From positions 1 through 64,000 of the forward strand of contig JALHMB010000007.1 of the NCBI GenBank assembly GCA_022844275.1: a stretch of DNA of 64,000 nt, read 5' to 3'. Under the pieces are notes generated by a model that saw only the letters and a program-made list of their open reading frames with translations, did no database searches and had not been told where the DNA came from. The position numbers and the translations under genes were made by a program. Within the stretch, counting starts at the first letter, position 1; every line of letters starts with the position of its first letter. This document shows positions 51,607-64,000 of the stretch, one piece after another. The stretch comes from Hyphomicrobiaceae bacterium (lineage in GTDB: Bacteria; Pseudomonadota; Alphaproteobacteria; Rhizobiales; Hyphomicrobiaceae).

Positions 51607-52866
51607 CTATTTCTTCGGCAGGAGCTTCTGCACGTCGGCCGTCATATCCGCCAGCACTTTGTCTGGCTCGCCGGCGCGCTTGCCGGTGACGATCGAGTTC
51701 ATGTGGTCCTTGATCACATCGGTGATCTTGAGGCCGTTCTCGCCCGGAAACGCGTACCACTTGGTCAGCAGATCGAGCTGGCTGACGGCGGTATAGTGGT
51801 TCGGGCTCTGGATGTAGAAGTCCTTGAGGTGAACCTCGTTGGCCTTCTTGTTGGGCGGCATATAGCCCGTTGTCTTGGCCATGATCGCGGCGCCTTCCGG
51901 GCCGTGCCAGAACTTCATGACCTTCCAGGCGGCCTCGCGCTTCTTGGGATCGCTGGCGAGAACGACACCGAGATTACCGCCAGCCGGCAGGCGGCCCTTG
52001 CCGGCAGCGACGCTCGGCCACTTGTGCGTCTTCAGCTGGAACTTCCCACCAATCATCTCAGTGACCTTGCTGAGGTCGGAGGTTGAAGTGAAGTGGATGC
52101 CCGTCTTGCCGGCGGCGAAGGCGGCGCGCATGTCCGGCTGGTTCATGTTCGGCATGCCGGCCTCGTTAACGAGGCTTGCCAGCATCCGAACGGCGAACTG
52201 ACCTTCCGGTCCGCCGAAAGCGACCTTCGACTCGTCCTCGGTCAGCATCGCACCGCCCTGCGAGAACACCGGACCCTGCCAGAGCCAGTTACCGGTGATG
52301 TCCCAGACATAGGTGAGGCCATTGATATCGGGGCCGAGCGCCTTGATCTTCTTGGCGAGCGCGATCACCTCTTCCCAGGTGTTGGGGAGGTTGTTGGGGT
52401 CGCCGCCGGCCTTCTTCACGAGGTCGAGGTTGTAGTAGCTGATCGGCAGCGAGATCGCGAACGGCAGTGCGTAGACTTTGCCGTTGAGTGTGCCGATGTC
52501 GAACATCGCGGCATGGAAGCCCTCGGCCTCCAACTCCTTGTCGGCCTTGATGTACTCGTCGAGCGGCTGCGCGAGACCACGATCGACCAGCGCCCGGAGG
52601 CGATTGAGGCCTTGGAAGGTGATGTCCGGCATCTGCTTGGTGATGGCCTCGCGCAGCACCTTCTGCGTCGCCTCCTCGTAGGAGTCGTAAGCCGCGCGGA
52701 ACGTGATCTTGATGTCGGGGTTCTGTTTGTTGAAGGCGGCCGCGATCTGCTTGTGCGTCTCGTTGAAGAGTTCGCCGTAGGGATACTGGATAACCACTTC
52801 GGTCTGTGCCATTGCCGGAACGGTGGCGAGCACCATCGCGGCCGAAAGCAGGGTCTGCTTTAGCAT
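51607..52866 (-). CDS. ABC transporter substrate-binding protein (UgpB-like)
   Basis: 419 residues. Signal peptide LSAAMVLATVPAMAQ, then the family-1 binding fold (PDIKITFRAAYDSYEEATQK; WEEVIALAKKIKALG; GKTGIHFTSTSDL). Similar in outline to UgpB (glycerol-3-phosphate and glycerophosphocholine) and to sugar receptors. Followed by two permease genes and an ATPase on the same strand. Confidence 0.9.
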   Translation of the reverse strand: MLKQTLLSAAMVLATVPAMAQTEVVIQYPYGELFNETHKQIAAAFNKQNPDIKITFRAAYDSYEEATQKVLREAITKQMPDITFQGLNRLRALVDRGLAQPLDEYIKADKELEAEGFHAAMFDIGTLNGKVYALPFAISLPISYYNLDLVKKAGGDPNNLPNTWEEVIALAKKIKALGPDINGLTYVWDITGNWLWQGPVFSQGGAMLTEDESKVAFGGPEGQFAVRMLASLVNEAGMPNMNQPDMRAAFAAGKTGIHFTSTSDLSKVTEMIGGKFQLKTHKWPSVAAGKGRLPAGGNLGVVLASDPKKREAAWKVMKFWHGPEGAAIMAKTTGYMPPNKKANEVHLKDFYIQSPNHYTAVSQLDLLTKWYAFPGENGLKITDVIKDHMNSIVTGKRAGEPDKVLADMTADVQKLLPKK

Positions 52867-52924
52867 TTTCGATCTCCTGATCTACGCTTGCATCTCGCGG
52901 ACGCGGAACCGTCCGTTCTTGCGG

Positions 52925-53761
52925 TTATTTCATCCCCGTGAACGTGATGCCCTCGATGAACCGCCGCTGCGCGAGCAGGAAGGCGATGATGAGCGGCGCA
53001 ATGATGATCGTCGCGGCGGCCATGAGGGGACCGTAGTCGGTGCCGGCCTCCTCGTTGCGGAACGTCGCAACGCCGACCGGCGGCGTGAACAGCTCCTTGC
53101 TGTTCACGGCGATCAGCGGCCAGAAGTAGTCATTCCAATGGGCGACAATGGAGAAGATGCCGAATGCCGTCAGCGCGGGAAGCGCGGTCGGCAGCATCAC
53201 GCGCCAGACGATCCCGATCTCGGAAATGCCATCCATACGCGCCGCGTCGACGAGATCGTCGGGCACCGTCATGAAGAACTGCCGCATCAGGAAAATGCCG
53301 AAGGCAGAGATCGTGAAGGGAACGATCAGAGCAGCGTATGTGTCGAGAATGCCGAGGTGATGGAAGAGCAGGAACACCGGGATCGCCGTCGCCTGAGGCG
53401 GGATCAGGATACAGAACAGGACGAGCGCGAACACCGCCTCGCGCCCCCAGAAGCGCAGTTTGGCCAGCGCATAAGCGGCTGGCAGTGCGATCAGCACTTG
53501 AAGCATGAAGATCGTAACGGTGACGATGGCGCCATTGAGCAAAAAGCGCATGAGCGGCGCGCGATCGAAGGCCTTCGTGTAGTTCTCGACGGCATGGAGA
53601 CGCTCGGGCCACCAGCGGATTTCCGACAGGAAGATCTCGGACTGTGGCTTCAGCGACGTCACTATCATCCACACGAAGGGCAACAGGACGATCGCCGCTG
53701 CGATCAACAGCAGCACATGCCGTAGCAGGCCCCATAGCGATATGCCGCGCGCGGTGCTCAT
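52925..53761 (-). CDS. ABC transporter permease (UgpE-like)
   Basis: 278 residues from ATG 53761 (ATGA overlap with the other permease gene). Six predicted spans and the EAA loop DLVDAARMDGISEIGIVWRV in the usual place. Forms a heterodimeric channel with the 53758 gene product. Confidence 0.92.
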   Translation of the reverse strand: MSTARGISLWGLLRHVLLLIAAAIVLLPFVWMIVTSLKPQSEIFLSEIRWWPERLHAVENYTKAFDRAPLMRFLLNGAIVTVTIFMLQVLIALPAAYALAKLRFWGREAVFALVLFCILIPPQATAIPVFLLFHHLGILDTYAALIVPFTISAFGIFLMRQFFMTVPDDLVDAARMDGISEIGIVWRVMLPTALPALTAFGIFSIVAHWNDYFWPLIAVNSKELFTPPVGVATFRNEEAGTDYGPLMAAATIIIAPLIIAFLLAQRRFIEGITFTGMK

Positions 53762-54711
53762 GCGTAGTGCACCTTCTTCTCGATGACGCGTACCTTGAGG
53801 ATGGTGAGCAGCAGCACGAATGCGAGGAAGACTACGGCGATCGCCGCCGCATGCCCCGACCGGAAGAACTCGAAGCCTTCGGAATACATGCTGTAGAGGA
53901 GCACCTCGGTGGCCTTGCTCGGCCCGCCCTTGGTCAGCACGTGGACGGTGTCGAATACCTGGAAGGAGCGAATCGCCGAGATGATCGCGACGAACATCGT
54001 CACCGGACCGAGCATCGGCCAGGTCACGAGCCAGAAGCGCGACCACGCTGAGCGCGCGCCGTCCATCACAGCGGCCTCATAGAGATGCGGCGGGATAGAC
54101 ACGAGGCCGGCCAGAAACAGCACCATATTGAAGCCGAAGAGCTGCCACACGCCGATTGCCGCGATCGTTGGAAGCGCGAGCTCCGGATTGGTAAGCCACG
54201 CCTGTGCCGGAAGGCCGAGTGATTTCAGCGTCAGGTTGATCAGGCCGAACTGCGGATGCAGCATGTACTCCCACGAGATCGCCATGGCGATCAGCGTGGC
54301 CATAACCGGGATGAAGAAGATCGAGCGGTAGAAAGCGCGCAGCGACGTGCCAGATTCGATCAGCAGCGCAATGCCAAGGCCGAGCGCCATGGATGCCGGC
54401 ACGACAATCGCGACGTAGACGAGCGTATTGAGAAGCGATGTCCAGAAGACGCGGTCGCCGTAAAGCTCAAGATAATTATCAAACCCGACGAACGACCAGG
54501 AGGGAGCGCCGAGCTGATAGTCGGTGAGCGACATCGCCAACACCGCGACGACCGGACCGATCAGCAGCAGGGTCATCAAAGTCATTGCGGGCAGTAGAAG
54601 GGTGAGAGCCGCTAAGGGGCGGCGCAGCTTGGCGAGGAGACGTGGACGGCCACGACGGGCCGGCTCCGCGGTCTCTTGGCTCAGAGTTGTGGCAATGGCG
54701 ACATCAGCCAT
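53758..54711 (-). CDS. ABC transporter permease (UgpA-like)
   Basis: 317 residues from ATG 54711. Six spans; EAA loop LYEAAVMDGARSAWSRFWLV, and AFYRSIFFIPVMATLIAMAI in the middle. The start lies inside the ATPase gene end (overlap of 8 bp), so translation is coupled. Confidence 0.92.
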   Translation of the reverse strand: MADVAIATTLSQETAEPARRGRPRLLAKLRRPLAALTLLLPAMTLMTLLLIGPVVAVLAMSLTDYQLGAPSWSFVGFDNYLELYGDRVFWTSLLNTLVYVAIVVPASMALGLGIALLIESGTSLRAFYRSIFFIPVMATLIAMAISWEYMLHPQFGLINLTLKSLGLPAQAWLTNPELALPTIAAIGVWQLFGFNMVLFLAGLVSIPPHLYEAAVMDGARSAWSRFWLVTWPMLGPVTMFVAIISAIRSFQVFDTVHVLTKGGPSKATEVLLYSMYSEGFEFFRSGHAAAIAVVFLAFVLLLTILKVRVIEKKVHYA

Positions 54712-55861
54712 ATGCCAGCTCTTTCTGCGCAGCCTTAGCGCCGACACGCCGCCCTGCCTTATCGAAGAGTCGGAGGTCCTCCATTGCGAACGTCAGGTCG
54801 ATCATCTCACCGATTCGAATGCTGCGGGCGCCGCCATGGTCGAGCCGGACGATCACCGGTGCGCTCTGCCCGTCGACATCGACATGGAGCAGCACCTCGG
54901 CGCCGAGGTTCTCCTTGTGCGCAAGGCGTCCGGAAACCAGCGCGCCCTCGGAACTCGCGAGCCGCATCGCCTCGGGGCGTATGCCGACGCTGATCGAACG
55001 CCCCGCTTGCTCGGACACTGAGATCGGAATGCGATGCCCGGCGAGCACGAGGGCGCGATCTTCGCCGACCGTGGCGCCCTCCAGAATGTTGATCTTAGGG
55101 CTGCCGATGAACTCGGCGACGCGCAGGTCCTGTGGGTCGTCGTAGACGTCGTCGGGCGAGCCGATCTGGATGATGTTCCCGTCCATCATGACGGCAATAC
55201 GGTCCGACATGGTCATCGCCTCGGCTTGGTCGTGCGTGACGTATATGAACGTCGCAGCGAGCCGGCGGTGAAGCTGAGCGATCTCGGTGCGCATGTGGAC
55301 GCGCAGCTTGGCGTCTAGATTCGAAAGCGGCTCGTCGAGGAGAAAGCCGCGCGGCTCGCGGACAATCGCGCGCCCGACGGCGACACGCTGGCGCTGACCA
55401 CCGGAAAGCTGCGCCGGCTTGCGGTGCAGCAGATCCCTCATACCAAGCAGTTCCGCAACTTTCTCGACGTCGGCGTGAATACCGCACTCAGCACTGCGCG
55501 TGCCCGGGACGAGCCAGCGCACGAGCGGAAGGCGCTGCAGTGCCGACAGGCGTCGCATACGCAGTGGCACTGCGATGTTGTTGAAAACAGTCAGGTGCGG
55601 GTAGAGCGCATAGGACTGGAAGACCATTGCAAGATTGCGATCTGCAGGCCGGATGCCATCCACGACGTCGCCACCGATGCGAACGCTGCCGTCCGTCTGA
55701 TCCTCGAGTCCGGCAATGATCCGCAGCAACGTGGATTTGCCGCATCCCGAGGGCCCGACCAGAGAGATGAATTCGCCGTCGGCGATGTCGAGGTCGACCC
55801 CCTTCAGCACCTCGGTCCGCTCGAAACTCTTGCGAACGCCTGTCAGCTCGAACATTGCCAT
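54704..55861 (-). CDS. ABC transporter ATPase (UgpC/MalK-like)
   Basis: 385 residues. Walker A GPSGCGKST, Q-loop FQSYALYP, signature LSGGQRQRVAVGRAI, Walker B RGFLLDEPLSNLD and H-loop VTHDQAEAMT, then a C-terminal TOBE regulatory domain. An insertion of ~15 residues (LQRLPLVRWLVPGTRS) after the Q-loop is longer than usual. First gene of the transporter operon, divergent from the LysR gene. Confidence 0.94.
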   Translation of the reverse strand: MAMFELTGVRKSFERTEVLKGVDLDIADGEFISLVGPSGCGKSTLLRIIAGLEDQTDGSVRIGGDVVDGIRPADRNLAMVFQSYALYPHLTVFNNIAVPLRMRRLSALQRLPLVRWLVPGTRSAECGIHADVEKVAELLGMRDLLHRKPAQLSGGQRQRVAVGRAIVREPRGFLLDEPLSNLDAKLRVHMRTEIAQLHRRLAATFIYVTHDQAEAMTMSDRIAVMMDGNIIQIGSPDDVYDDPQDLRVAEFIGSPKINILEGATVGEDRALVLAGHRIPISVSEQAGRSISVGIRPEAMRLASSEGALVSGRLAHKENLGAEVLLHVDVDGQSAPVIVRLDHGGARSIRIGEMIDLTFAMEDLRLFDKAGRRVGAKAAQKELAYG

Positions 55862-55998
55862 CTGAAGCCTTGCTGCTTTTCAACCGGCGACGGCTTGGTG
55901 CTAAAGGCAAACTTTGACAGTCACATTACGGTTAGAAGTTTAGCTTATAGGGTGCCCAGCTGAGGCTTTTCCCGAGCGGGATGGAAGGTGACGGATCG

Positions 55999-56871
55999 AT
56001 GTCGCTTACGTCGGCGCGTATCCGCACCATCAATGCGGTCTTCGAGGCCGGCACGTTCTCCGCCGCCGCGCGCCGTCTCGGTATCTCGCAGCCGGCCGTG
56101 ACGCAACAGGTCCGCGAGGTCGAGGCAGAGTTCGGCGTGAAGCTATTCGACCGTCGCGGCAACGGGCTCGTGCCGACGGCGATCTGCCGCCAGCTTGCTA
56201 CCGTTACGATGCGCATCCAGTCTGCAGAGAGCGAAGCAGTCTCGATTCTGCGTCAGCACGAGATGCTGTCGGGCGGCGAGCTTCGTATTGGGCTGGGGAA
56301 CTCGATGCCCGGCATGACCCTCGTCGCAGCATTCATACGGGCGTACCCGAATATTTCGATCCAGGTCGAGATGGGGAGCTGGGCTTCCATCATCGACGCC
56401 ATCGTCGATCAGCGCGTGGACGTTGCGGTGCTACCGGAAGTGCCGGATGACGGCCGCTTCCGGCGCGAGGTCTGTCTGCGCCAGAGAGTGGTCGCGATCG
56501 TTCACACGCAGCATGTTCTCGCTCGTGCCGGGAGCGTCACCTGTGCCGAGCTTGCGCACGAGCGGCTCATCTTTCGGACCCGGCAATCGTCAACCCAGCG
56601 AGTTGTCGATCATGCCTTTCGGGCGGTGGGCATCGCCGTGTCGCCGGTCATTACGCTCGATACGCGTGAGGGCGTGTTGGAGGCCGTGGCGAACCGCATT
56701 GGCGTGGGTTTTACGTGGGAGCATGGCTCCAGCCGGACGGACACCATCACCAAGCTCGACGTTGCCGAGCTTTCACGCGAGTCACCGGAGCACATTTTCT
56801 GCCTGTCCGACAATCGCAGCAAGCTTGTGGAGCTGTTCTTCCGGTCGCCCCTGTCGCAGGGCTTCCGCTGA
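55999..56871 (+). CDS. LysR-family transcriptional regulator
   Basis: About 290 residues from ATG 55999 (in-frame ATG 55981 is possible). HTH at ~8-40 (NAVFEAGTFSAAARRLGISQ, PAVTQQVREVEAEFG), then the periplasmic-binding-type effector domain (GELRIGLGNSMPGMTLVAAF). It is divergent from the ABC operon, the normal position for its regulator. Confidence 0.92.
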   Translation: MSLTSARIRTINAVFEAGTFSAAARRLGISQPAVTQQVREVEAEFGVKLFDRRGNGLVPTAICRQLATVTMRIQSAESEAVSILRQHEMLSGGELRIGLGNSMPGMTLVAAFIRAYPNISIQVEMGSWASIIDAIVDQRVDVAVLPEVPDDGRFRREVCLRQRVVAIVHTQHVLARAGSVTCAELAHERLIFRTRQSSTQRVVDHAFRAVGIAVSPVITLDTREGVLEAVANRIGVGFTWEHGSSRTDTITKLDVAELSRESPEHIFCLSDNRSKLVELFFRSPLSQGFR

Positions 56872-56938: not shown

Positions 56939-58987
56939 TCAGACCTGGGGCTCGATCCATAAGCGAGTGTCATACGACAGCGGCGCGTAGTCGTTCCATT
57001 CCGCCAGCTTTTCGAGATAGCGCCGGCGGTAGGCGCTGTCGTCCTCGCACTCGATACCCTCGAGAACGATGCTGGCGCCGATGTCATAATAAAGATCGAG
57101 ATTGCGCAGATCGGGCACCGGCGTCTCACCGCGTTCGGCTTCGCCCTGCATCTGCCAGAACAGCCGCTCGAGACGGCGCACGAACGCCGACGTGTCATGC
57201 AGCGTGCTCGTCGGCAGCTGTCGCTGGAGACCGGCCTTGAGTGCCGCGAGCTGATCGCGATTGTGCGCAAAGGCAATGGCGCGGCCGACGTACTCCTCCG
57301 GACTACTGCAGATCAGCTCCGGTGCGCCAGCAGCCGCCACGATGCTGGCGCAGACGCGAGACGCAAAGCTCTTTCCCGGAAATGTCAGGACCGGCAATCC
57401 CGCGGTGAGCGCGTCGGTCGCCGTTGCGTGCGCACCGTAGGGGAACGTGTCGAGGAAAAGATCGGCTACGCCCATGCGTGAAATATGGTTCGGATGGCCC
57501 GCCACCGAAGGCGCAAAGATGAGACGCTCCGGCGCGATGCCATTCTGTTGCGCCAGCTGGAGCAGGCGCTGGTTGGCGCCATCGTTGCCCGTGCGCAGCC
57601 AAAGCACGCTGCCGGGCGTCGCCGCTAGGATCGTCATGAATCGAGCGAAGGCGTTCGCCGTAATCTTCTGCGCTCCGCTGAGGCATGCATAGACGAAAGC
57701 CTCCTCAGGTAGCCCAGCCTCCGCGCGGCTCGGGCGCGGCGGGATCTGCTGCTTGCGATCACAAGGCAGATAGCAAGCGAGCCGCAGCACCTTCTCGGTG
57801 AAATAGATCTCGTTCCCCGGCGGTACGATCCAATCGTCCGCGATAAGGTATTGATGAAACGGGCTGCCCATGGAACCGGGAAAGCCGCAGAAATTCACGA
57901 TGACCGGCGCCGGCCGATAGGCGAAGATCTTCGTCCGCGCCTGCTTGGTGTAACCATTGAGATCCACGAGGATGTCGATTTCGTCGGCCGCGATTTGCGC
58001 AGCAGCTTCGGCGTCACCGACCGTGCTGATATCACGCCAGCAATCAGCGGCATTCTTGATGCGCGTATGCGTGGCGTCATTCGAGCGCGGCTCGCCGCAG
58101 TAATAGCCGAAGATCTCGATGCTGGTCTTGTCGTGCAGCTCCAGGGCCTCGCAGAGGGCAAAGCCGACGGCGTGCTCGCGCAGGTCAGACGAAACGTACC
58201 CGACGCGCAGACGCTTGCCGGTCCCCGACTTACGTCGCGGCGCGACACGCTGGAGCTTACCGGCCTCGACTCGACCAACAGCGGATTTGCTGTAGCGATA
58301 GGCCTTGGCGAGTTGGAAAAGGGGATCGTCCGCATAGCAGGCGAGCGTCATGGACGACATCGCATCGAGCATCTGACGCGACGACACATGCGCCGTTGGC
58401 GCCAGTACCGGCCACTTGCATTGACGTTGCCGCATGGAGGACCAATGCTGGCCCGCCTCGACCTTCTCCGGACTGAGTTGTATGGCCTGCAACAGCGCCG
58501 CCTCGGCTTCCTCCAACAATCCGGCGCCCTCGAGGACGCGGCCGATCTGCTGCAGCGTGATGAGCCGGTGATTCAGCCGATCCGGGGTGATATCCGCGCT
58601 GGCATTGGCGTAGCTGCGCCATTGCTCGACGGCCTCGCTGACAAGACCGCACTCTTCCAGAGCCCGGCCGAGATTGATGTGCGCAGGCCCGAAACTCGGA
58701 TCGAGCTTCAGGGCATGACGCAGCGCTTGAATGGCACCGGAAATATCGCCGACTTGCCTACAGGCGACGGAATAGTTGAAGCAGGCAAGATGCAACAGTG
58801 GATTGCCATCATTGAAAGCAATCCAGGTCTTGTAGAGGTCGGCAGCCAGCGCTGGATGACCAGCAGCCACCAGACTTTCGGCGATCTGCACCAGCTCACC
58901 GAGCGTCAGTTGTTGGCGGCGGGCCCGTTCCAGAATGCCGGCGAGCGGCGATGTCTGCCCGGAGGCAATGGCGTTGTTGATTGTCAC
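56939..58987 (-). CDS. TPR plus GT41 (O-GlcNAc-transferase/SPINDLY-like) glycosyltransferase
   Basis: 682 residues from GTG 58987 (frame open to 59038). N-terminal TPR helices ~40-190 (FNYSVACRQVGDISGAIQAL, GPAHINLGRALEECGLVSEA) precede the two-part GT-B catalytic region: RLRVGYVSSDLREHAVGFAL, DLNGYTKQARTKIFAYRPAP, CLSGAQKITANAFARFMTIL and LFLDTFPYGAHATATDALTA. These are hallmarks of O-GlcNAc-type protein glycosyltransferases. The gene lies just downstream of the Ser/Thr-rich repeat protein on the same strand; that protein is the obvious candidate acceptor (inference). Confidence 0.88.
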   Translation of the reverse strand: MTINNAIASGQTSPLAGILERARRQQLTLGELVQIAESLVAAGHPALAADLYKTWIAFNDGNPLLHLACFNYSVACRQVGDISGAIQALRHALKLDPSFGPAHINLGRALEECGLVSEAVEQWRSYANASADITPDRLNHRLITLQQIGRVLEGAGLLEEAEAALLQAIQLSPEKVEAGQHWSSMRQRQCKWPVLAPTAHVSSRQMLDAMSSMTLACYADDPLFQLAKAYRYSKSAVGRVEAGKLQRVAPRRKSGTGKRLRVGYVSSDLREHAVGFALCEALELHDKTSIEIFGYYCGEPRSNDATHTRIKNAADCWRDISTVGDAEAAAQIAADEIDILVDLNGYTKQARTKIFAYRPAPVIVNFCGFPGSMGSPFHQYLIADDWIVPPGNEIYFTEKVLRLACYLPCDRKQQIPPRPSRAEAGLPEEAFVYACLSGAQKITANAFARFMTILAATPGSVLWLRTGNDGANQRLLQLAQQNGIAPERLIFAPSVAGHPNHISRMGVADLFLDTFPYGAHATATDALTAGLPVLTFPGKSFASRVCASIVAAAGAPELICSSPEEYVGRAIAFAHNRDQLAALKAGLQRQLPTSTLHDTSAFVRRLERLFWQMQGEAERGETPVPDLRNLDLYYDIGASIVLEGIECEDDSAYRRRYLEKLAEWNDYAPLSYDTRLWIEPQV

Positions 58988-59110
58988 GAGCGTCCCGCGG
59001 CAAAGAAGCCTGACAATGAGGCCTACGACGACAGACAAAGGATCGTCGTAGCGCTATCAGCGCAGGCTTGCGTCGGGCTTGTCGCAGCAGTGTGGCATTC
59101 GCAAACGAAA

Positions 59111-59139
59111 TTCGCCCGCACGTCCCACGTGCGGGCGAA
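59111..59139 (-). terminator. Perfect 13-bp hairpin between repeat gene and GT41 gene
   Basis: TTCGCCCGCACGT and its exact complement around a 3-base loop, 44 bp past the repeat-protein stop. On the minus strand AATTTCG follows, a weak T-run. It may terminate most transcripts and let a minority read into the glycosyltransferase gene. Confidence 0.65.
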
Positions 59140-59182
59140 AATCATGTGCGTAGTGGCGCGGCCGAAGCCGCGCCCGATGACA

Positions 59183-62100
59183 TCACACGTCGTTGTAGGC
59201 GGCGAGCACCGCCTCGACCTGTGCCGTGGTCATCGCCTGGATCTGCGGCGTCGTAAAGGCTCCAGCCTGCGTACTGGTCAGCGCGGCGATGTCGTCAGTG
59301 GAGAGGCCCGCCAAGGCCCTTACGCTGAGCGCAGCGATCTCATCGGTCGAGAAGGTTGCGATCTCGGTCGTCGACATGGCGTCGATGGCCTCCGAACCCA
59401 ACGCCGCGATCTGCGTGCTGTTGAGCGCCTGGATCTGGGTGCTCGTCAGTGCCACGATCTGGTCGGTGCTGAAGCTTGCGACCTGCGTGGCCTTCAGAGC
59501 CCCGACCTGCGTCGTGGTGAGGGCTGCGACCTGCGAGGTCGTCATTCCTCCGAGGTGCTTGACCGTCAAGGCGCCGACCTGATCGGTCGTGAGCGCCGCG
59601 ACCTGCGTCGTCGTCATTCCGGCGACTTGCTCACTGGTCAATCCCGCAATCTGCTTGACGTCCAGCGCGGCGACCTTGTCCGTGCTCAGCGAGGCCACCT
59701 GTGTGGTGGTCAGGCCGGCGAGGGACCGGACATTGATGGCAGCGATCTCATCCGTCGTGAAGGTTGCCAGCTCGGCGGTCGTCATGGTGCCGAGAGCAGA
59801 CGAGCCGAGCGCGGCAATCTGCGTGCTGCCGAGCGCCTGAACCTGGGTCGAGTTGAGCGCTTGGACCTGATCACTGCTGAGCGCCGCGACCTGCGTTGCC
59901 TTCAGCGATCCGACCTGGGTCGTGGTCATAGCGGCGACCTGCGAAGTCGTCATCGCCAGGAGCTGCTTGGCACTCAGGGCACCAATCTGGTCGGACGTCA
60001 TCGCGGCAACCTGCGATGTCGTCATTCCCGCGACCTGCTCGGTGCTCAGCGCGGCAATCTGCTTGACGCTGAGGGCTGCGACCTTGTCGGTCGACAGCGA
60101 GGCGACCTGCGTGCTGGACAAGCCCGCCAGAGAGCGCGTGTTCACCGCGGCGATCTCATCGGTGGTGAAGGTTGAAAGCTCGGCCGTCGTCATCGTGCCG
60201 AGGGCCGCCGAGCCCAGAGACGCGATCTGCGTGCTTGAAAGGGCTCCTACCTGCGTAGACGAGAGCGCTTCCACCTGACTGCTGCTCAGTCCAGCGATCT
60301 GCGTCGCTTTCAGGGCGCCAATCTGGGTCGTGGTGAGCGCAGCAACCTGCGAGGTCGTCAGTGCCGAGAGATGCTTGACGCTCAGCGCACCAATCTGGTC
60401 CGTCGTCAGGGCCGCGATCTGCGAGGTCGTCATCGCACCGACTTGGCCACTGCTCAGCGCGGCAACCTGCTTGGCGCTCAAAGCCGCGACTTTGTCAGTC
60501 GTGAGTGCGGCCACCTGTGTGGTCGACAGGCCGGTGAGCGACCTGGCGTTGATTGCGGCGATCTCGTCGGTCGTGAAAGTGCCGAGCTCAGCGGTCGTCA
60601 TGCTGCCGAGGGCCGCCGAGCCCAGAGACGCGATCTGCGTGCTCGAAAGGGCCCCAACCTGCGTCGACGAGAGCGCTTCCACCTGACTGCTGCTCATCGC
60701 CGCGACCTGCGTCGCCTTGAGAGCGCCGATCTGCGTCGTGGTAAGGGCCGCGACCTGTGAAGTCGACAGCGCCGACAGGTGCTTGGCGCTCAGGGCGCCG
60801 ACCTGATCCGTGGTGAGGGCCGCGATCTGCGAGGTCGTCATCGCGCCAACCTGATCACTGCTCAGCGCGGCAATCTGCTTGGCACTCAGCGCAACCACCT
60901 TGTCCGTCGTCAGAGATGCGACCTGTGTGGTCGAAAGGCCGGACAGCGCTTTGACATTGATCGCCGCCATTTCGTCAGTGGTAAAGGTGCCAAGCTCAGC
61001 CGTCGTCATCGTGCCGAGATCCGCAGAGCTCAACGCGGCGATCTGTGTGCTACCGAGAGCCCCGACCTGGGTTGACGAGAACGCCTGGATCTGGTCGCTG
61101 CTCAGCGCCGCAACCTGCGTTGCCTTGAGAGCACCGACCTGCGTGGTCGTAAGGGCTGCAACCTGCGATGTCGTCATCCCCGCGAGGTGCTTGGCGCTGA
61201 GTGCGCCGATCTGGTCGGTCGTCATCGCCGCAATCTGCGATGTCGTCATTCCGGCCACCTGGTCGCTGGTCAGTGCCGCGACCTGCTTGACCGTCAGGGC
61301 GGCGACCTTATCGGTCGTCAGCGAAGCCACCTGCGTGGTCGAGAGTCCGGCCAGCGACCTGACGCTGATCGCAGCGATCTCGTCGGTCGTGAAGGTGCCG
61401 AGCTCAGCCGTCGTCATCGTGCCGAGCGACGCCGAGCCGAGAGCCGCTATCTGCGTGCTCGAAAGGGCCCCGACCTGCGTCGACGAGAGCGCTTCCACCT
61501 GACTGCTGCTCAGCGAGCTCACCTGTGTCGCCTTCAGAGCCCCGAGCTGCGTCGTGGTGAGCGCCGCAACCTGCGAGGTCGACATGGCCTGCAGCTGCTT
61601 AGCGTTTAGGACACCGATCTGATCGGTGCTGAGGGCCGCAACCTGCGACGTGGTCAACCCGGCCACCTGGTCGCTGGTCAGCGCCGCGATCTGCTTGACG
61701 CTCATGGCGGCAAGCTTGTCGGTCGACAGCGAAGCTACCTGCGCGGTGGAGAGGCCAGCGAGGGACCGAACATTGATGGCGGCGATTTCATCGGTCGTGA
61801 AGGTCGCAAGCTCGGCCGTCGTCATGGAGCCGAGAGCTTCGGAACCGAGTGCAGCAATCTGCGTGCTGTTGAGGGCCTGGACTTGGGTGGAATCCAACGC
61901 CTGCACCTGGTCGGAATAGAGTGCTGCAACCTGAGATGCGGTAAGCCCGGTGACCTGGTTGGTGGTCAGGGCGTCGATCTGGGCGAGCGTCAGGCCGGTG
62001 AGCGCTTTCGGGGCGATGGCGCTCAACTGATCGGAGCTCAGGGCCACGAGATCCGTGGTCTCCAAGGCAGCAACCTGCGCCGAGCTGAGTGCCGCGAGCT

Positions 62101-62206
62101 GCTTGGCGCTCAGAGCGGCCATATCATCGGTCGTCAGGTCGGCAATCGCGGTGGTCGAGAGTGACTTGATCTGATTGACGGTCAGAGAAGAAACGATGGA
62201 AGTCAT
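59183..62206 (-). CDS. Giant octapeptide-repeat protein (1007 aa), Ser/Thr/Ala/Gln-rich
   Basis: From ATG 62206 (AAGGGCG upstream; alternative in-frame start further 5'). Almost the whole chain is tandem octads of the form x-T/S-x-Q-V/I-x-A-L, for example TTSQVAAL, TTDQIGAL, SSTQVGAL. Seventeen octads make a 136-residue block (408 bp) repeated about seven times, each containing TMTTAELxTFTTDEIAAI. No signal peptide or membrane span is seen and there are essentially no Cys or aromatic residues, so the protein may be a surface filament, adhesin or intracellular scaffold. The start region is MTSIVSSLTVNQIKSLSTTA. Function unknown; likely modified by the GT41 enzyme next door. Confidence 0.88.
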   Translation of the reverse strand: MTSIVSSLTVNQIKSLSTTAIADLTTDDMAALSAKQLAALSSAQVAALETTDLVALSSDQLSAIAPKALTGLTLAQIDALTTNQVTGLTASQVAALYSDQVQALDSTQVQALNSTQIAALGSEALGSMTTAELATFTTDEIAAINVRSLAGLSTAQVASLSTDKLAAMSVKQIAALTSDQVAGLTTSQVAALSTDQIGVLNAKQLQAMSTSQVAALTTTQLGALKATQVSSLSSSQVEALSSTQVGALSSTQIAALGSASLGTMTTAELGTFTTDEIAAISVRSLAGLSTTQVASLTTDKVAALTVKQVAALTSDQVAGMTTSQIAAMTTDQIGALSAKHLAGMTTSQVAALTTTQVGALKATQVAALSSDQIQAFSSTQVGALGSTQIAALSSADLGTMTTAELGTFTTDEMAAINVKALSGLSTTQVASLTTDKVVALSAKQIAALSSDQVGAMTTSQIAALTTDQVGALSAKHLSALSTSQVAALTTTQIGALKATQVAAMSSSQVEALSSTQVGALSSTQIASLGSAALGSMTTAELGTFTTDEIAAINARSLTGLSTTQVAALTTDKVAALSAKQVAALSSGQVGAMTTSQIAALTTDQIGALSVKHLSALTTSQVAALTTTQIGALKATQIAGLSSSQVEALSSTQVGALSSTQIASLGSAALGTMTTAELSTFTTDEIAAVNTRSLAGLSSTQVASLSTDKVAALSVKQIAALSTEQVAGMTTSQVAAMTSDQIGALSAKQLLAMTTSQVAAMTTTQVGSLKATQVAALSSDQVQALNSTQVQALGSTQIAALGSSALGTMTTAELATFTTDEIAAINVRSLAGLTTTQVASLSTDKVAALDVKQIAGLTSEQVAGMTTTQVAALTTDQVGALTVKHLGGMTTSQVAALTTTQVGALKATQVASFSTDQIVALTSTQIQALNSTQIAALGSEAIDAMSTTEIATFSTDEIAALSVRALAGLSTDDIAALTSTQAGAFTTPQIQAMTTAQVEAVLAAYNDV
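59375..61825 (-). repeat. 408-bp tandem higher-order repeat inside the octapeptide protein gene
   Basis: The same Met codon of each block lies at 59377, 59785, 60193, 60601, 61009, 61417 and 61825 (minus-strand position of the A), exactly 408 bp apart with no insertion or deletion. Each block is 17 octads. The array extends on both sides of these anchors. Confidence 0.93.
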
Positions 62207-62707: not shown

Positions 62708-64000
62708 TCACTTCCGTTCGAGCACATGGACATGAGACCAGTCAGCGGCCGGAGCTGACTGGATGAGCGCTCTGCAGCGCTCCATGAAGAAGCGAGCAGG
62801 CGGATCAATGGTCGATATCTGCTCGAAGCTACGGAGGGCCCCGGCGAAATCTTTCGACCGCCAGCGATCGAGCCCTTCCGCGTATGTCTCGATCGTCGCG
62901 ACACTATCTTTCGAAGCCTCGCCGACAAGTCCGATCGGCTCATATATCCGAACCGGGCTCGATCTTCCGACGACCCTGATGGTGTCGATCTCTCGCCAAG
63001 TGATGGCTGGTCCAGCGAGTTGCACCGTGGCTTCGGAGGCCAGAATTGCCGTTCCGTAGTATTTGTTCGCCCCCTCGATGCGCGAGGCGAGGTTCGCGCT
63101 ATCGCCGACGACCGTGTAGTTGAAACGCCGCTTGGAGCCAATATTGCCGACGATGCCGACGCCAGAATGCAGGCCGATGCGCTGCTCGAGCGTGCGGCCT
63201 CGAATAGCGAGGCCTGCCGCGTTCATCTCGCTGAGCCGCGTGCGCGCCGCCAAGGCAGACTTCACGGCATTGAGGGCGTGCTGCGCATCGTCAGCGGGTG
63301 CGCCGAATACGCCGTCGATGGCGTCACCGATGTACTTATCGATGAAGCCCTCGTGTTCCATGACAATGTCGGTCATGGCGGTCAGGTACTCGTTCATTAC
63401 CGCCACCAGCTCGTGCGGCTCGAGATCTTCGGAGAGCTTGCTGAAGCCAGCAAGATCGGACCTGTACAGCGTGACCGTGCGTCGCTCGCCGCCAAGCCGC
63501 AACTTCTCGGGCTGGCGTGCAAGTTCCTCCACGATGCTTGGCGCCATGTAGTGGCTGAAAGCCTGCCGCACGCGATTGCGCTCACGCGTCGTCTGAAAAT
63601 AGAAGAAGCCGGTGCAGAAGATGTAGAGTCCCGTCAGCGTCAGCGCGGGAAATGATGGATCGAGAAGCGAGCCATACGTGCGCGCCAGCCACGCGGCCGT
63701 CAGCACCGTCATCATGGTAACAGCGCCCATGACGGCACCGAGCACAGGCCCAGACTGGAGCACGAAGACGGCCAGGAGCAGACCCGCCAGCGTCGTGAAC
63801 ACGACCTCCAGTCCCGTGGAGAGGTCCGGCCGATGGAGCATGTTCCCGGCAATGATCTGCTCGATGGCCTGGGCATGAATTTCTACGCCGGCCACCACCG
63901 CATCAAGCGGCGTCGCCCGCATGTCGAACAAGCCGGGCGCGCTCGTACCGATCAGCACAATGCGACCGGCGATATCCTCGCGCGCGACGCGGCCTTGGAG
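62708..64000 (-). CDS. CHASE2-type class III adenylate/guanylate cyclase (N terminus beyond window)
   Basis: At least 430 residues; the frame is open to base 64000. The end of a periplasmic CHASE2 sensor domain is seen (AGRIVLIGTSAPGLFDMRAT, PLDAVVAGVEIHAQAI), then two or three membrane spans (LEVVFTTLAGLLLAVFVL; FPALTLTGLYIFCTGFFYF), then the cyclase catalytic domain with metal Asp in YRSDLAGFSKLSEDL, GDAIDGVFGAPADDAQH and GLHSGVGIVGNIGSKRRFNY. The usual GDAVMAVF reads GDAIDGVF here. It probably makes cAMP, which the small cNMP-binding protein at 49206 could sense (inference). Confidence 0.9.
   Translation of the reverse strand, partial: LQGRVAREDIAGRIVLIGTSAPGLFDMRATPLDAVVAGVEIHAQAIEQIIAGNMLHRPDLSTGLEVVFTTLAGLLLAVFVLQSGPVLGAVMGAVTMMTVLTAAWLARTYGSLLDPSFPALTLTGLYIFCTGFFYFQTTRERNRVRQAFSHYMAPSIVEELARQPEKLRLGGERRTVTLYRSDLAGFSKLSEDLEPHELVAVMNEYLTAMTDIVMEHEGFIDKYIGDAIDGVFGAPADDAQHALNAVKSALAARTRLSEMNAAGLAIRGRTLEQRIGLHSGVGIVGNIGSKRRFNYTVVGDSANLASRIEGANKYYGTAILASEATVQLAGPAITWREIDTIRVVGRSSPVRIYEPIGLVGEASKDSVATIETYAEGLDRWRSKDFAGALRSFEQISTIDPPARFFMERCRALIQSAPAADWSHVHVLERK

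Follow-up and report, generated by a model that had tools for sequence, protein, structure and literature searches.

Is the giant repeat protein encoded in the 64,000-nucleotide stretch analyzed here (the window; Hyphomicrobiaceae bacterium, GCA_022844275.1, contig JALHMB010000007.1) the substrate of the glycosyltransferase encoded next to it? The original prediction proposed that a protein offering over a hundred near-identical Ser/Thr sites is O-glycosylated by the O-GlcNAc-transferase-like enzyme encoded directly downstream, and that a hairpin between the genes could keep enzyme levels below those of the substrate. To address this question, the two genes and the spacer between them were first re-examined. 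The enzyme is encoded on the reverse strand by an open reading frame at 56939..59038, 699 aa when read from a TTG; a GTG at 58987 (56939..58987, 682 aa) is the likelier start, because a close relative (locus L045; loci retrieved from other genomes are denoted by L and genomes by G) has Met at that codon. Its product matched Pfam Glyco_transf_41 (PF13844; E 2.4e-66, 224.6 bits against a curated cut-off of 25) as well as several TPR models. The repeat gene, also on the reverse strand, extends from an ATG at 62206 to a stop at 59183 and encodes 1007 aa; when scanned with 33 extra residues upstream of the ATG, it matched PF20080 (ALTTAQ_rpt) in 42 stretches (E 4e-198, 641.2 bits against 26.4). Additional Pfam and NCBIfam matches of the repeat (CAAP1, DUF4351, lanthipeptide and others) were set aside as cross-matches of a repetitive sequence.

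The repeat is organized as 6.3 copies of a 408-bp (136-aa, 17-octad) super-repeat. Our scan detected 124 octads, with Ser/Thr at octad position 2 in 96, at position 3 in 95 and at both in 80, and 286 Ser and Thr residues in all; "over a hundred" is therefore fair for octads or for hydroxyls in total, but octads carrying both number 80. The intergenic distance is 144 nt (195 nt to the GTG). It contains a terminator-like hairpin with a 13-pair stem (59139..59111, reverse strand), although the scan that found it detected no more such sites in the region than in shuffled sequences (2 against a mean of 3.1), and a second, smaller G+C-rich hairpin just after the stop codon of the repeat gene (59155..59174, reverse strand), with a hairpin at about the same place in loci L044 and L045. 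The 150-nt spacer folds at z = -5.3, with 0 of 200 shuffles as good, and the spacers of L044, L045 and L053 also fold into hairpins (without a shuffle control). The hairpin exists, but its role as an attenuator of enzyme level is only a possibility. The arrangement described by the original prediction was confirmed.

To examine whether the two genes co-occur elsewhere, a condition on which the proposed pairing had been made to depend, genomes were searched with the enzyme alone, without regard to the repeat. In the draw from the order, 11 other genomes of 259 hold a close relative of the enzyme, and in 11 of 11 an ALTTAQ ORF lies directly upstream on the same strand. The class draw added four genomes at E<=1e-150, two with a direct neighbor and two with the repeat at 5.8 kb, yielding 15 of 15 genomes (13 directly upstream). 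As a control, 30 further stretches were retrieved (L218-L247), of which 29 hold a GT41 (L245 does not); ALTTAQ ORFs lie in 2 of these 29, L225 and L226 (Fisher p 6e-10). These two were included because their genomes had already given ALTTAQ loci, and their GT41s (404 and 344 bits) are intermediate; without them the count is 0 of 27. Class-wide, with thresholds that we set (enzyme E<=1e-150, repeat E<=1e-50), 4 genomes had both, 0 the enzyme only, 1 the repeat only and 381 neither. The close relatives of the enzyme form one clade. ALTTAQ genes without an adjacent GT41 are common. Of nine ORFs neighboring such unpaired repeats that were scanned, seven matched nothing; some of these were probably in wrong frames, so this does not establish the absence of another glycosyltransferase there.

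The fold of the repeat was then predicted with high confidence (pLDDT 95.7). In this model each octad is one short helix, 33 of 33 helices start at octad position 3, and position 2 caps the helix. A Foldseek search with the octad model returned only weak mesothelin-like matches (best E 2.2e-4; TM-score 0.33 or less over the query in the 50 rows shown), which were not taken as homology; the only sequence match at E<=0.001 among solved structures was an entry named HeliScrew4. A structure predicted for the GT41 from a three-sequence alignment was of low confidence (pLDDT 48) and was not used.

If the repeat is an acceptor, its hydroxyls might be expected to differ according to the presence of the enzyme. 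We therefore compared 31 paired repeat proteins with 7 proteins from genomes without the close enzyme. Mean Ser/Thr frequency at position 3 was 0.67 in the former against 0.30 in the latter (p 4e-5), and at position 4 it was 0.60 against 0.24 (p 0.012). Position 2 was similar in both groups (0.75 against 0.79), and positions 7 and 8 did not differ significantly. The 7 unpaired proteins represent about 5 lineages, so these p-values are optimistic. G+C content does not explain the difference, as it did not differ between the groups (30 paired without the window, 7 unpaired). Ser/Thr at both positions 2 and 3 separated paired from unpaired only weakly (p 0.038, 32 against 4 proteins), and overall Ser/Thr content also separated the same sets (p 0.0006), so that the signature is partly one of composition, but the position-by-position comparison places it at positions 3 and 4. 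Against a sister species, the position-3 hydroxyl of the window's protein is kept in 85 of 95 octads and that of position 4 in 16 of 52; position 2 is kept as well as position 3 (83 of 96), so that this comparison alone does not pick the site.

Several proteins were left out of the 31-against-7 count: fragments, the genomes of group f199 (Ser/Thr-rich, several with a close GT41 that is not adjacent in the stretches retrieved), L064 (a duplicate of L045), the second repeat gene of L175 (a paired protein), L170 (from a genome without GT41 at E<=1e-20; 0.14 and 0.24 at positions 3 and 4) and L095, among others. The last of these contradicts the trend: it is a low-identity octad ORF (a 29% identity match with a stop inside) in G216, a genome without GT41, and has Ser/Thr of 0.96 at position 3; with L095 counted the separation is no longer complete. 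Copies not adjacent to the enzyme (L099, L047, L098, L101 and L062) were considered apart, and they are mixed: L098 and L101 are Ser/Thr-rich at positions 3 and 4, whereas L099 is not.

The residues of the enzyme were compared with those of OGT. The equivalents of the OGT catalytic residues Lys842, His558, His920, Thr922 and Asp925 (a set that does not include His498) are conserved in 35 of 35 sequences above 500 bits, the window's included. In contrast, the residue equivalent to Cys917 in the N-acetyl pocket of OGT is Tyr in 35 of 35 (Tyr534 in P0002 numbering), as in the O-fucosyltransferase SPINDLY, where this Tyr is reported to clash with GlcNAc (PMC9715652). A second indication regarding the sugar came from the neighborhood: a gene for UDP-xylose synthase (UXS, a UDP-glucuronate decarboxylase) lies near the pair in 12 of 29 paired genomes searched, against 0 of 29 other GT41 stretches. 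The link is not universal: UXS is 280 kb away in the window's genome, lies elsewhere in 13 other paired genomes, and is absent (E<=1e-60) from G952, G782 and G861, which have pairs, while the GT41-less or GT41-distant ALTTAQ genomes G802, G860, G866 and G158 also have it.

With regard to export, the repeat protein has no hydrophobic N-terminal segment that would suggest a Sec signal, the highest 15-residue Kyte-Doolittle mean in its first 60 residues being 0.97, by this crude measure alone. Type I secretion genes (ABC/HlyD/OEP) are present at L050, L058, L097, L100 and L061, and at the ALTTAQ loci L159, L160, L161 and L174, but no ABC exporter of the L050 type was found in the window's genome at E<=1e-100.

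Taken together, these results partly support the original interpretation: the enzyme-substrate pairing is strongly supported, whereas the use of UDP-GlcNAc is not. The explanation that we favor, with good though not complete confidence, is that the two genes form a dedicated protein O-glycosylation pair. In this view the repeat protein would fold as a long screw of 8-residue helical units, in which position 2 (mostly Ser/Thr, else Asn, Gly, Lys or Asp) caps each helix and positions 3 and, in many relatives, 4 carry a Ser/Thr on the first helical turn. The cytoplasmic GT41 enzyme, holding the screw by its TPR arm, would transfer a sugar from a UDP-sugar to these hydroxyls many times per molecule. 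The sugar is probably not GlcNAc, and UDP-xylose is the best candidate; the glycosylated screw would then probably be exported, in several relatives by a neighboring type I secretion system. The pairing, the conserved active site, the Ser/Thr signature and the linkage of UXS and type I secretion genes in relatives are shown by sequence, and the fold is a prediction, while catalysis, the sugar, the modified sites and export are inferred, there being no direct evidence of modification.

Other explanations appear less likely. The same pair might use UDP-GlcNAc, as a bacterial O-GlcNAc system; the enzyme is similar to human OGT (E 4.5e-80) and to Xanthomonas XcOGT (E 3.3e-70), and UXS is not linked in the window's own genome. 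The invariant Tyr, the UXS linkage in relatives and the reduction to 18 residues of the stretch between the two catalytic lobes (133 residues in the alignment for human OGT) make this unlikely, but as XcOGT has Tyr there too, the residue alone does not settle the matter. It is less likely still that the GT41 modifies some other protein or a polysaccharide and merely travels with the repeat gene in one operon. Catalysis is inferred from sequence alone, and UXS and other sugar genes (glf in L156, GT61 beside L157) do occur nearby; however, the tandem is tight across several families, and with a divergent order in L050 and a reversed one in L156 the bond outlives operon shape, to which the Ser/Thr excess at positions 3 and 4 where the close enzyme is present may be added. 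The least likely scenario is that the TPR arm acts as a cytoplasmic chaperone or holder of the repeat before export, with the Ser/Thr residues at positions 3 and 4 serving solubility or binding. TPR domains bind proteins, and the N-terminal TPR domain of FlmG suffices for flagellin binding (PMC7591256), but a pure holder would not need a glycosyltransferase active site that is invariant in 35 of 35 sequences.

A more far-reaching possibility, which we regard as tentative and somewhat less likely than not, is that a clade of GT41 enzymes are protein O-xylosyltransferases that use UDP-xylose to decorate octad helical screws at a fixed register position, on up to a hundred or more sites per molecule, before export. 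This would constitute a bacterial, proteoglycan-like, mass O-xylosylation system. Many bacterial GT41 enzymes have no known acceptor or sugar; here, genome context names the acceptor (ALTTAQ repeats), the likely site (octad position 3, and 4 in relatives) and a testable sugar (xylose). The pair would provide a minimal two-gene system for dense, regularly spaced protein O-glycosylation on a rigid screw, useful for studying how GT41 TPR arms read a repetitive substrate and for glycoengineering, and would assign a role to PF20080 repeats.

Parts of this arrangement are known from other systems. In Caulobacter crescentus, FlmG is a cytoplasmic TPR and GT-B enzyme that O-glycosylates an exported structural protein, its TPR part binding the substrate (PMC7591256); there, however, export is flagellar, the sugar is pseudaminic acid, and the substrate is flagellin rather than an octad screw. 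HMW1C is a GT41 enzyme encoded near the exported protein that it modifies, the HMW1-type adhesins, and has a UDP-hexose pocket (PMC3983070). Its modification is also cytoplasmic. It differs in being N-linked (PMC3012730), in an AAD domain in place of TPRs and in two-partner secretion, and the window's enzyme scored only 26.3 bits against the cut-off of 1000 of the NCBIfam equivalog NGTferase. SPINDLY shares the TPR and GT41 architecture and the Tyr at the OGT Cys917 position (PMC9715652), but uses GDP-fucose and acts on nucleocytoplasmic eukaryotic proteins. Human OGT and XcOGT share TPR and GT41 with the same aligned Lys, His, Thr and Asp; the pocket Cys of OGT is Tyr here (as in XcOGT), the long intervening region of human OGT is missing, and neither is known to have a neighboring repeat acceptor. 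Serine-rich repeat adhesins with their own glycosyltransferases (PMC6973325; PMC7661464) are similar in being Ser-rich repeat surface proteins with dedicated O-glycosylation and export. Those systems are Gram-positive, with accessory Sec export and other glycosyltransferase families, and their substrate is not an octad screw.

To characterize the two genes, we first delimited them on the minus strand. A 1007-aa repeat protein (ATG at 62206 to stop at 59183) is followed, after a 144-nt spacer, by a TPR+GT41 enzyme (ORF 59038..56939, with a likely GTG start at 58987). The repeat protein belongs to PF20080 'ALTTAQ_rpt' (E 4e-198), and the enzyme to PF13844 with TPRs. The repeat unit is an octad, commonly L-[ST]-[ST]-x-Q-[VIL]-A-A, and 17 octads make up a 408-bp super-repeat. 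We counted 124 octads, with Ser/Thr at position 2 in 96, at position 3 in 95 and at both in 80. The observation behind the original prediction, an O-GlcNAc-transferase-like TPR enzyme encoded directly downstream of a protein offering over a hundred near-identical Ser/Thr sites, was confirmed, 'over a hundred' being fair for the octads or for the hydroxyls in total. The spacer carries a 13-pair terminator-like hairpin and folds at z -5.3; the spacers of three other loci carrying the pair (L044, from a sister species, L045 and L053; L numbers denote fetched stretches and G numbers genomes) also fold into hairpins of other sequence, in this case without shuffled controls. Upstream of the repeat gene and on the same strand lies a CHASE2-adenylate/guanylate cyclase gene (62708..64000, cut by the window edge), while 51607..56871 holds a divergent LysR regulator and a Ugp/Mal-type sugar or glycerol-3-phosphate ABC transporter, none of which passes its NCBIfam cut-off in the rows examined.

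To examine whether the two genes occur together elsewhere, as the original prediction required, we searched first by the repeat. ALTTAQ is patchy. Including the window's own genome, PF20080 was found in 11 of 103 genomes of the family, and the window's protein, used as query at E<=0.001, matched in 5 of 60 relatives, 10 of 387 genomes of the class draw and 25 of 397 of the phylum draw, weak matches included. Caulobacter vibrioides, a control genome in the family search, also has PF20080 matches. In the stretches fetched, the GT41 lies directly downstream on the same strand in 14 loci (L044, L045, L046, L048, L053, L055, L056, L057, L058, L061 from a Pseudomonas, L157, L158, L175 and L176), is divergent in L050, and lies within 6 kb in L097, L100 and L156. 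It was not seen near other ALTTAQ genes (for example L047, L059, L060 and L155), so the repeat exists without the enzyme. Of 24 other ALTTAQ genomes of the phylum draw, 14 hold any GT41 at E<=1e-20 and 9 hold one above 500 bits; G802 has a strong ALTTAQ gene and no GT41 at that level.

The unbiased direction is the search by enzyme. In the order draw (259 genomes), 11 genomes besides the window's own have a GT41 at E<=1e-130, and in 11 of 11 (ten newly fetched neighbourhoods and that of G044) an ALTTAQ ORF lies directly upstream on the same strand. In the class draw (387 genomes) four others have a GT41 at E<=1e-150. All four have ALTTAQ matches at E<=1e-50, two in direct tandem (L175 and L176) and two at 5.8 kb (L097 and L100), giving 15 of 15 in total. 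In L175 (2-18000, genome G297) a single GT41 sits between two large ALTTAQ genes, and a third lies about 300 kb away. For comparison, we fetched 29 stretches around GT41s outside this group, some of them from genomes that have ALTTAQ elsewhere. An ALTTAQ ORF was present in 2 of 29 (Fisher p 6e-10), L225 (Duganella, 404 bits) and L226 (344 bits), both holding intermediate GT41s from genomes that had been reached through ALTTAQ. In a tree of 75 GT41 sequences, those above 500 bits form one clade of 35; eight of these, from the genome family f199, were not adjacent to ALTTAQ in the stretches fetched or lay 8 kb away. Frames above 1500 aa were left out of that tree, such as those of about 2500 aa with several GT41 matches (L177-L179). 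In f199, open frames of about 2500-3800 aa with several GT41 matches each (L177, L178, L179, and contigs C141 of G578 and C92 of G592) occur in genomes that also have giant ALTTAQ open frames of up to 5692 aa.

The fold of the repeat was predicted from a 272-residue piece aligned only with other copies from the same protein. The model (pLDDT 95.7) shows each octad as one short helix, 33 of 33 beginning at octad position 3, which makes position 2 the helix N-cap. By sequence, the only solved relative at E<=0.001 is PDB 9zem, named HeliScrew4 (E 1.4e-18).

If the repeats are the acceptor, Ser/Thr should be kept at a non-structural position where the enzyme exists. To test this, we compared 31 paired proteins (including L050, L097, L100 and L156, which are near but not in direct tandem) with 7 proteins from genomes without the close enzyme. 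Position 2 is Ser/Thr in 0.75 and 0.79, respectively; position 3 in 0.67 against 0.30 (p 4e-5); and position 4 in 0.60 against 0.24 (p 0.012), whereas positions 7 and 8 do not differ significantly (p 0.16 and 0.09). The sum of positions 3 and 4 is 0.83-1.87 in the 31 paired and 0.38-0.74 in the 7 unpaired proteins, and G+C does not differ. Several points weigh against this signature. The 7 unpaired proteins represent about 5 lineages. Two unlinked repeats in genomes that have the enzyme (L098 and L101) are also Ser/Thr-rich, which a trans-acting enzyme would allow, while L099 is not. Finally, L095 (9233-9868), a weak octad ORF in a 2-Mb genome without GT41, has 0.96 at position 3, although this near-perfect array (AFSSVEVS) may be a different repeat that mimics the pattern. 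Between the window and its sister species L044, hydroxyls are kept at position 2 in 83 of 96 octads, at position 3 in 85 of 95, at position 4 in 16 of 52 and at position 8 in 18 of 24. Position 4 is thus not conserved in this lineage, and position 3, which is not the cap, is our inferred site; the exposure of positions 3 and 4 is itself deduced from their place on the first helical turn.

The OGT active-site residues that were tested, Lys842, His558, His920, Thr922 and Asp925, are present in 35 of 35 enzymes. OGT Cys917, part of the pocket for the N-acetyl group (PMC4683255), is Tyr in 35 of 35, and in SPINDLY the equivalent Tyr744 is reported to clash with GlcNAc (PMC9715652). XcOGT has Tyr as well, so this weakens but does not exclude GlcNAc. 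An alternative sugar was suggested by a clustering of neighbour ORFs. Apart from the pair, antisense frames of the repeats and a mixed ABC-transporter cluster, the most widespread cluster is one of sugar epimerases, which are UDP-xylose synthases (UXS) in all but one locus (L053); the L057 copy matches human UDP-glucuronate decarboxylase 1 at E 2.4e-128, far above UDP-glucose epimerases. UXS was then searched in 29 of the 31 paired genomes (those of L225 and L226 were not included). It lies at the ALTTAQ-GT41 locus, within about 10 kb, in 12 (G006, G108, G111, G122, G272, G297, G353, G501, G897, G989, G1006 and G1055; in G501 on the contig with the other part of the repeats), elsewhere in 14, among them the window's genome (C7:341970), and nowhere at E<=1e-60 in 3. 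At the 29 other GT41 stretches it was found in 0, with weaker epimerases (87-123 bits) in three. UXS is also present in G802, G860, G866 and G158, which have ALTTAQ without the close enzyme, and was not found in G859, G863 and G865. We therefore hold xylose as the best but unproven sugar. Other sugars may be used or added in some lineages, as hinted by a UDP-galactopyranose mutase gene (glf) between the GT41 and the ALTTAQ gene of G855 (L156:4848-15200). In G767 a GT61 glycosyltransferase directly follows the GT41 (L157:15371-16597); GT61 includes xylosyltransferases elsewhere.

With regard to export, the repeat protein has no hydrophobic N-terminus. Type I secretion (T1SS) genes, identified in part by similarity to Pfam-typed copies, adjoin or lie near the pair or the repeat in L050, L058, L097 and L100 (ABC + HlyD) and in L061 (ABC, HlyD, OEP), and are found at the ALTTAQ genes of L159, L160, L161 and L174. 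Across 36 genomes, an ABC of the L050 type at E<=1e-100 was found in 16, beside the pair in four (G060, G122, G272 and G353); the window's genome has none. In G691, which has no GT41 at E<=1e-20, an ABC transporter similar to that of the L050 T1SS (481 bits) lies beside a protein with sparse octads and a different C-terminal part (L170:5919-12201).

Taken together, the genomic case is strong for the pair and moderate for xylose, which remains unproven. The pairing, the conserved active-site residues, the Ser/Thr signature and the linkage of UXS and T1SS genes in relatives are seen in the sequences and the fold is predicted, whereas catalysis, the sugar, the modified sites and export are inferred. 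The proposal that the two genes form a protein O-glycosylation pair was partly supported: the association of enzyme and repeat held, but the evidence did not favour GlcNAc. No description of this pair was found in the literature searched, which lacked most subscription papers: there was no paper on ALTTAQ or HeliScrew, and none among the top hits on GT41 enzymes, repeats, secretion, xylose or SPINDLY. The association of an ALTTAQ octad-repeat protein with a TPR+GT41 enzyme appears to be new, although its elements have precedents: an exported protein modified by a GT41 encoded nearby is known from HMW1C (PMC3983070), and TPR-GT enzymes acting on exported flagellin are known from FlmG (PMC7591256).
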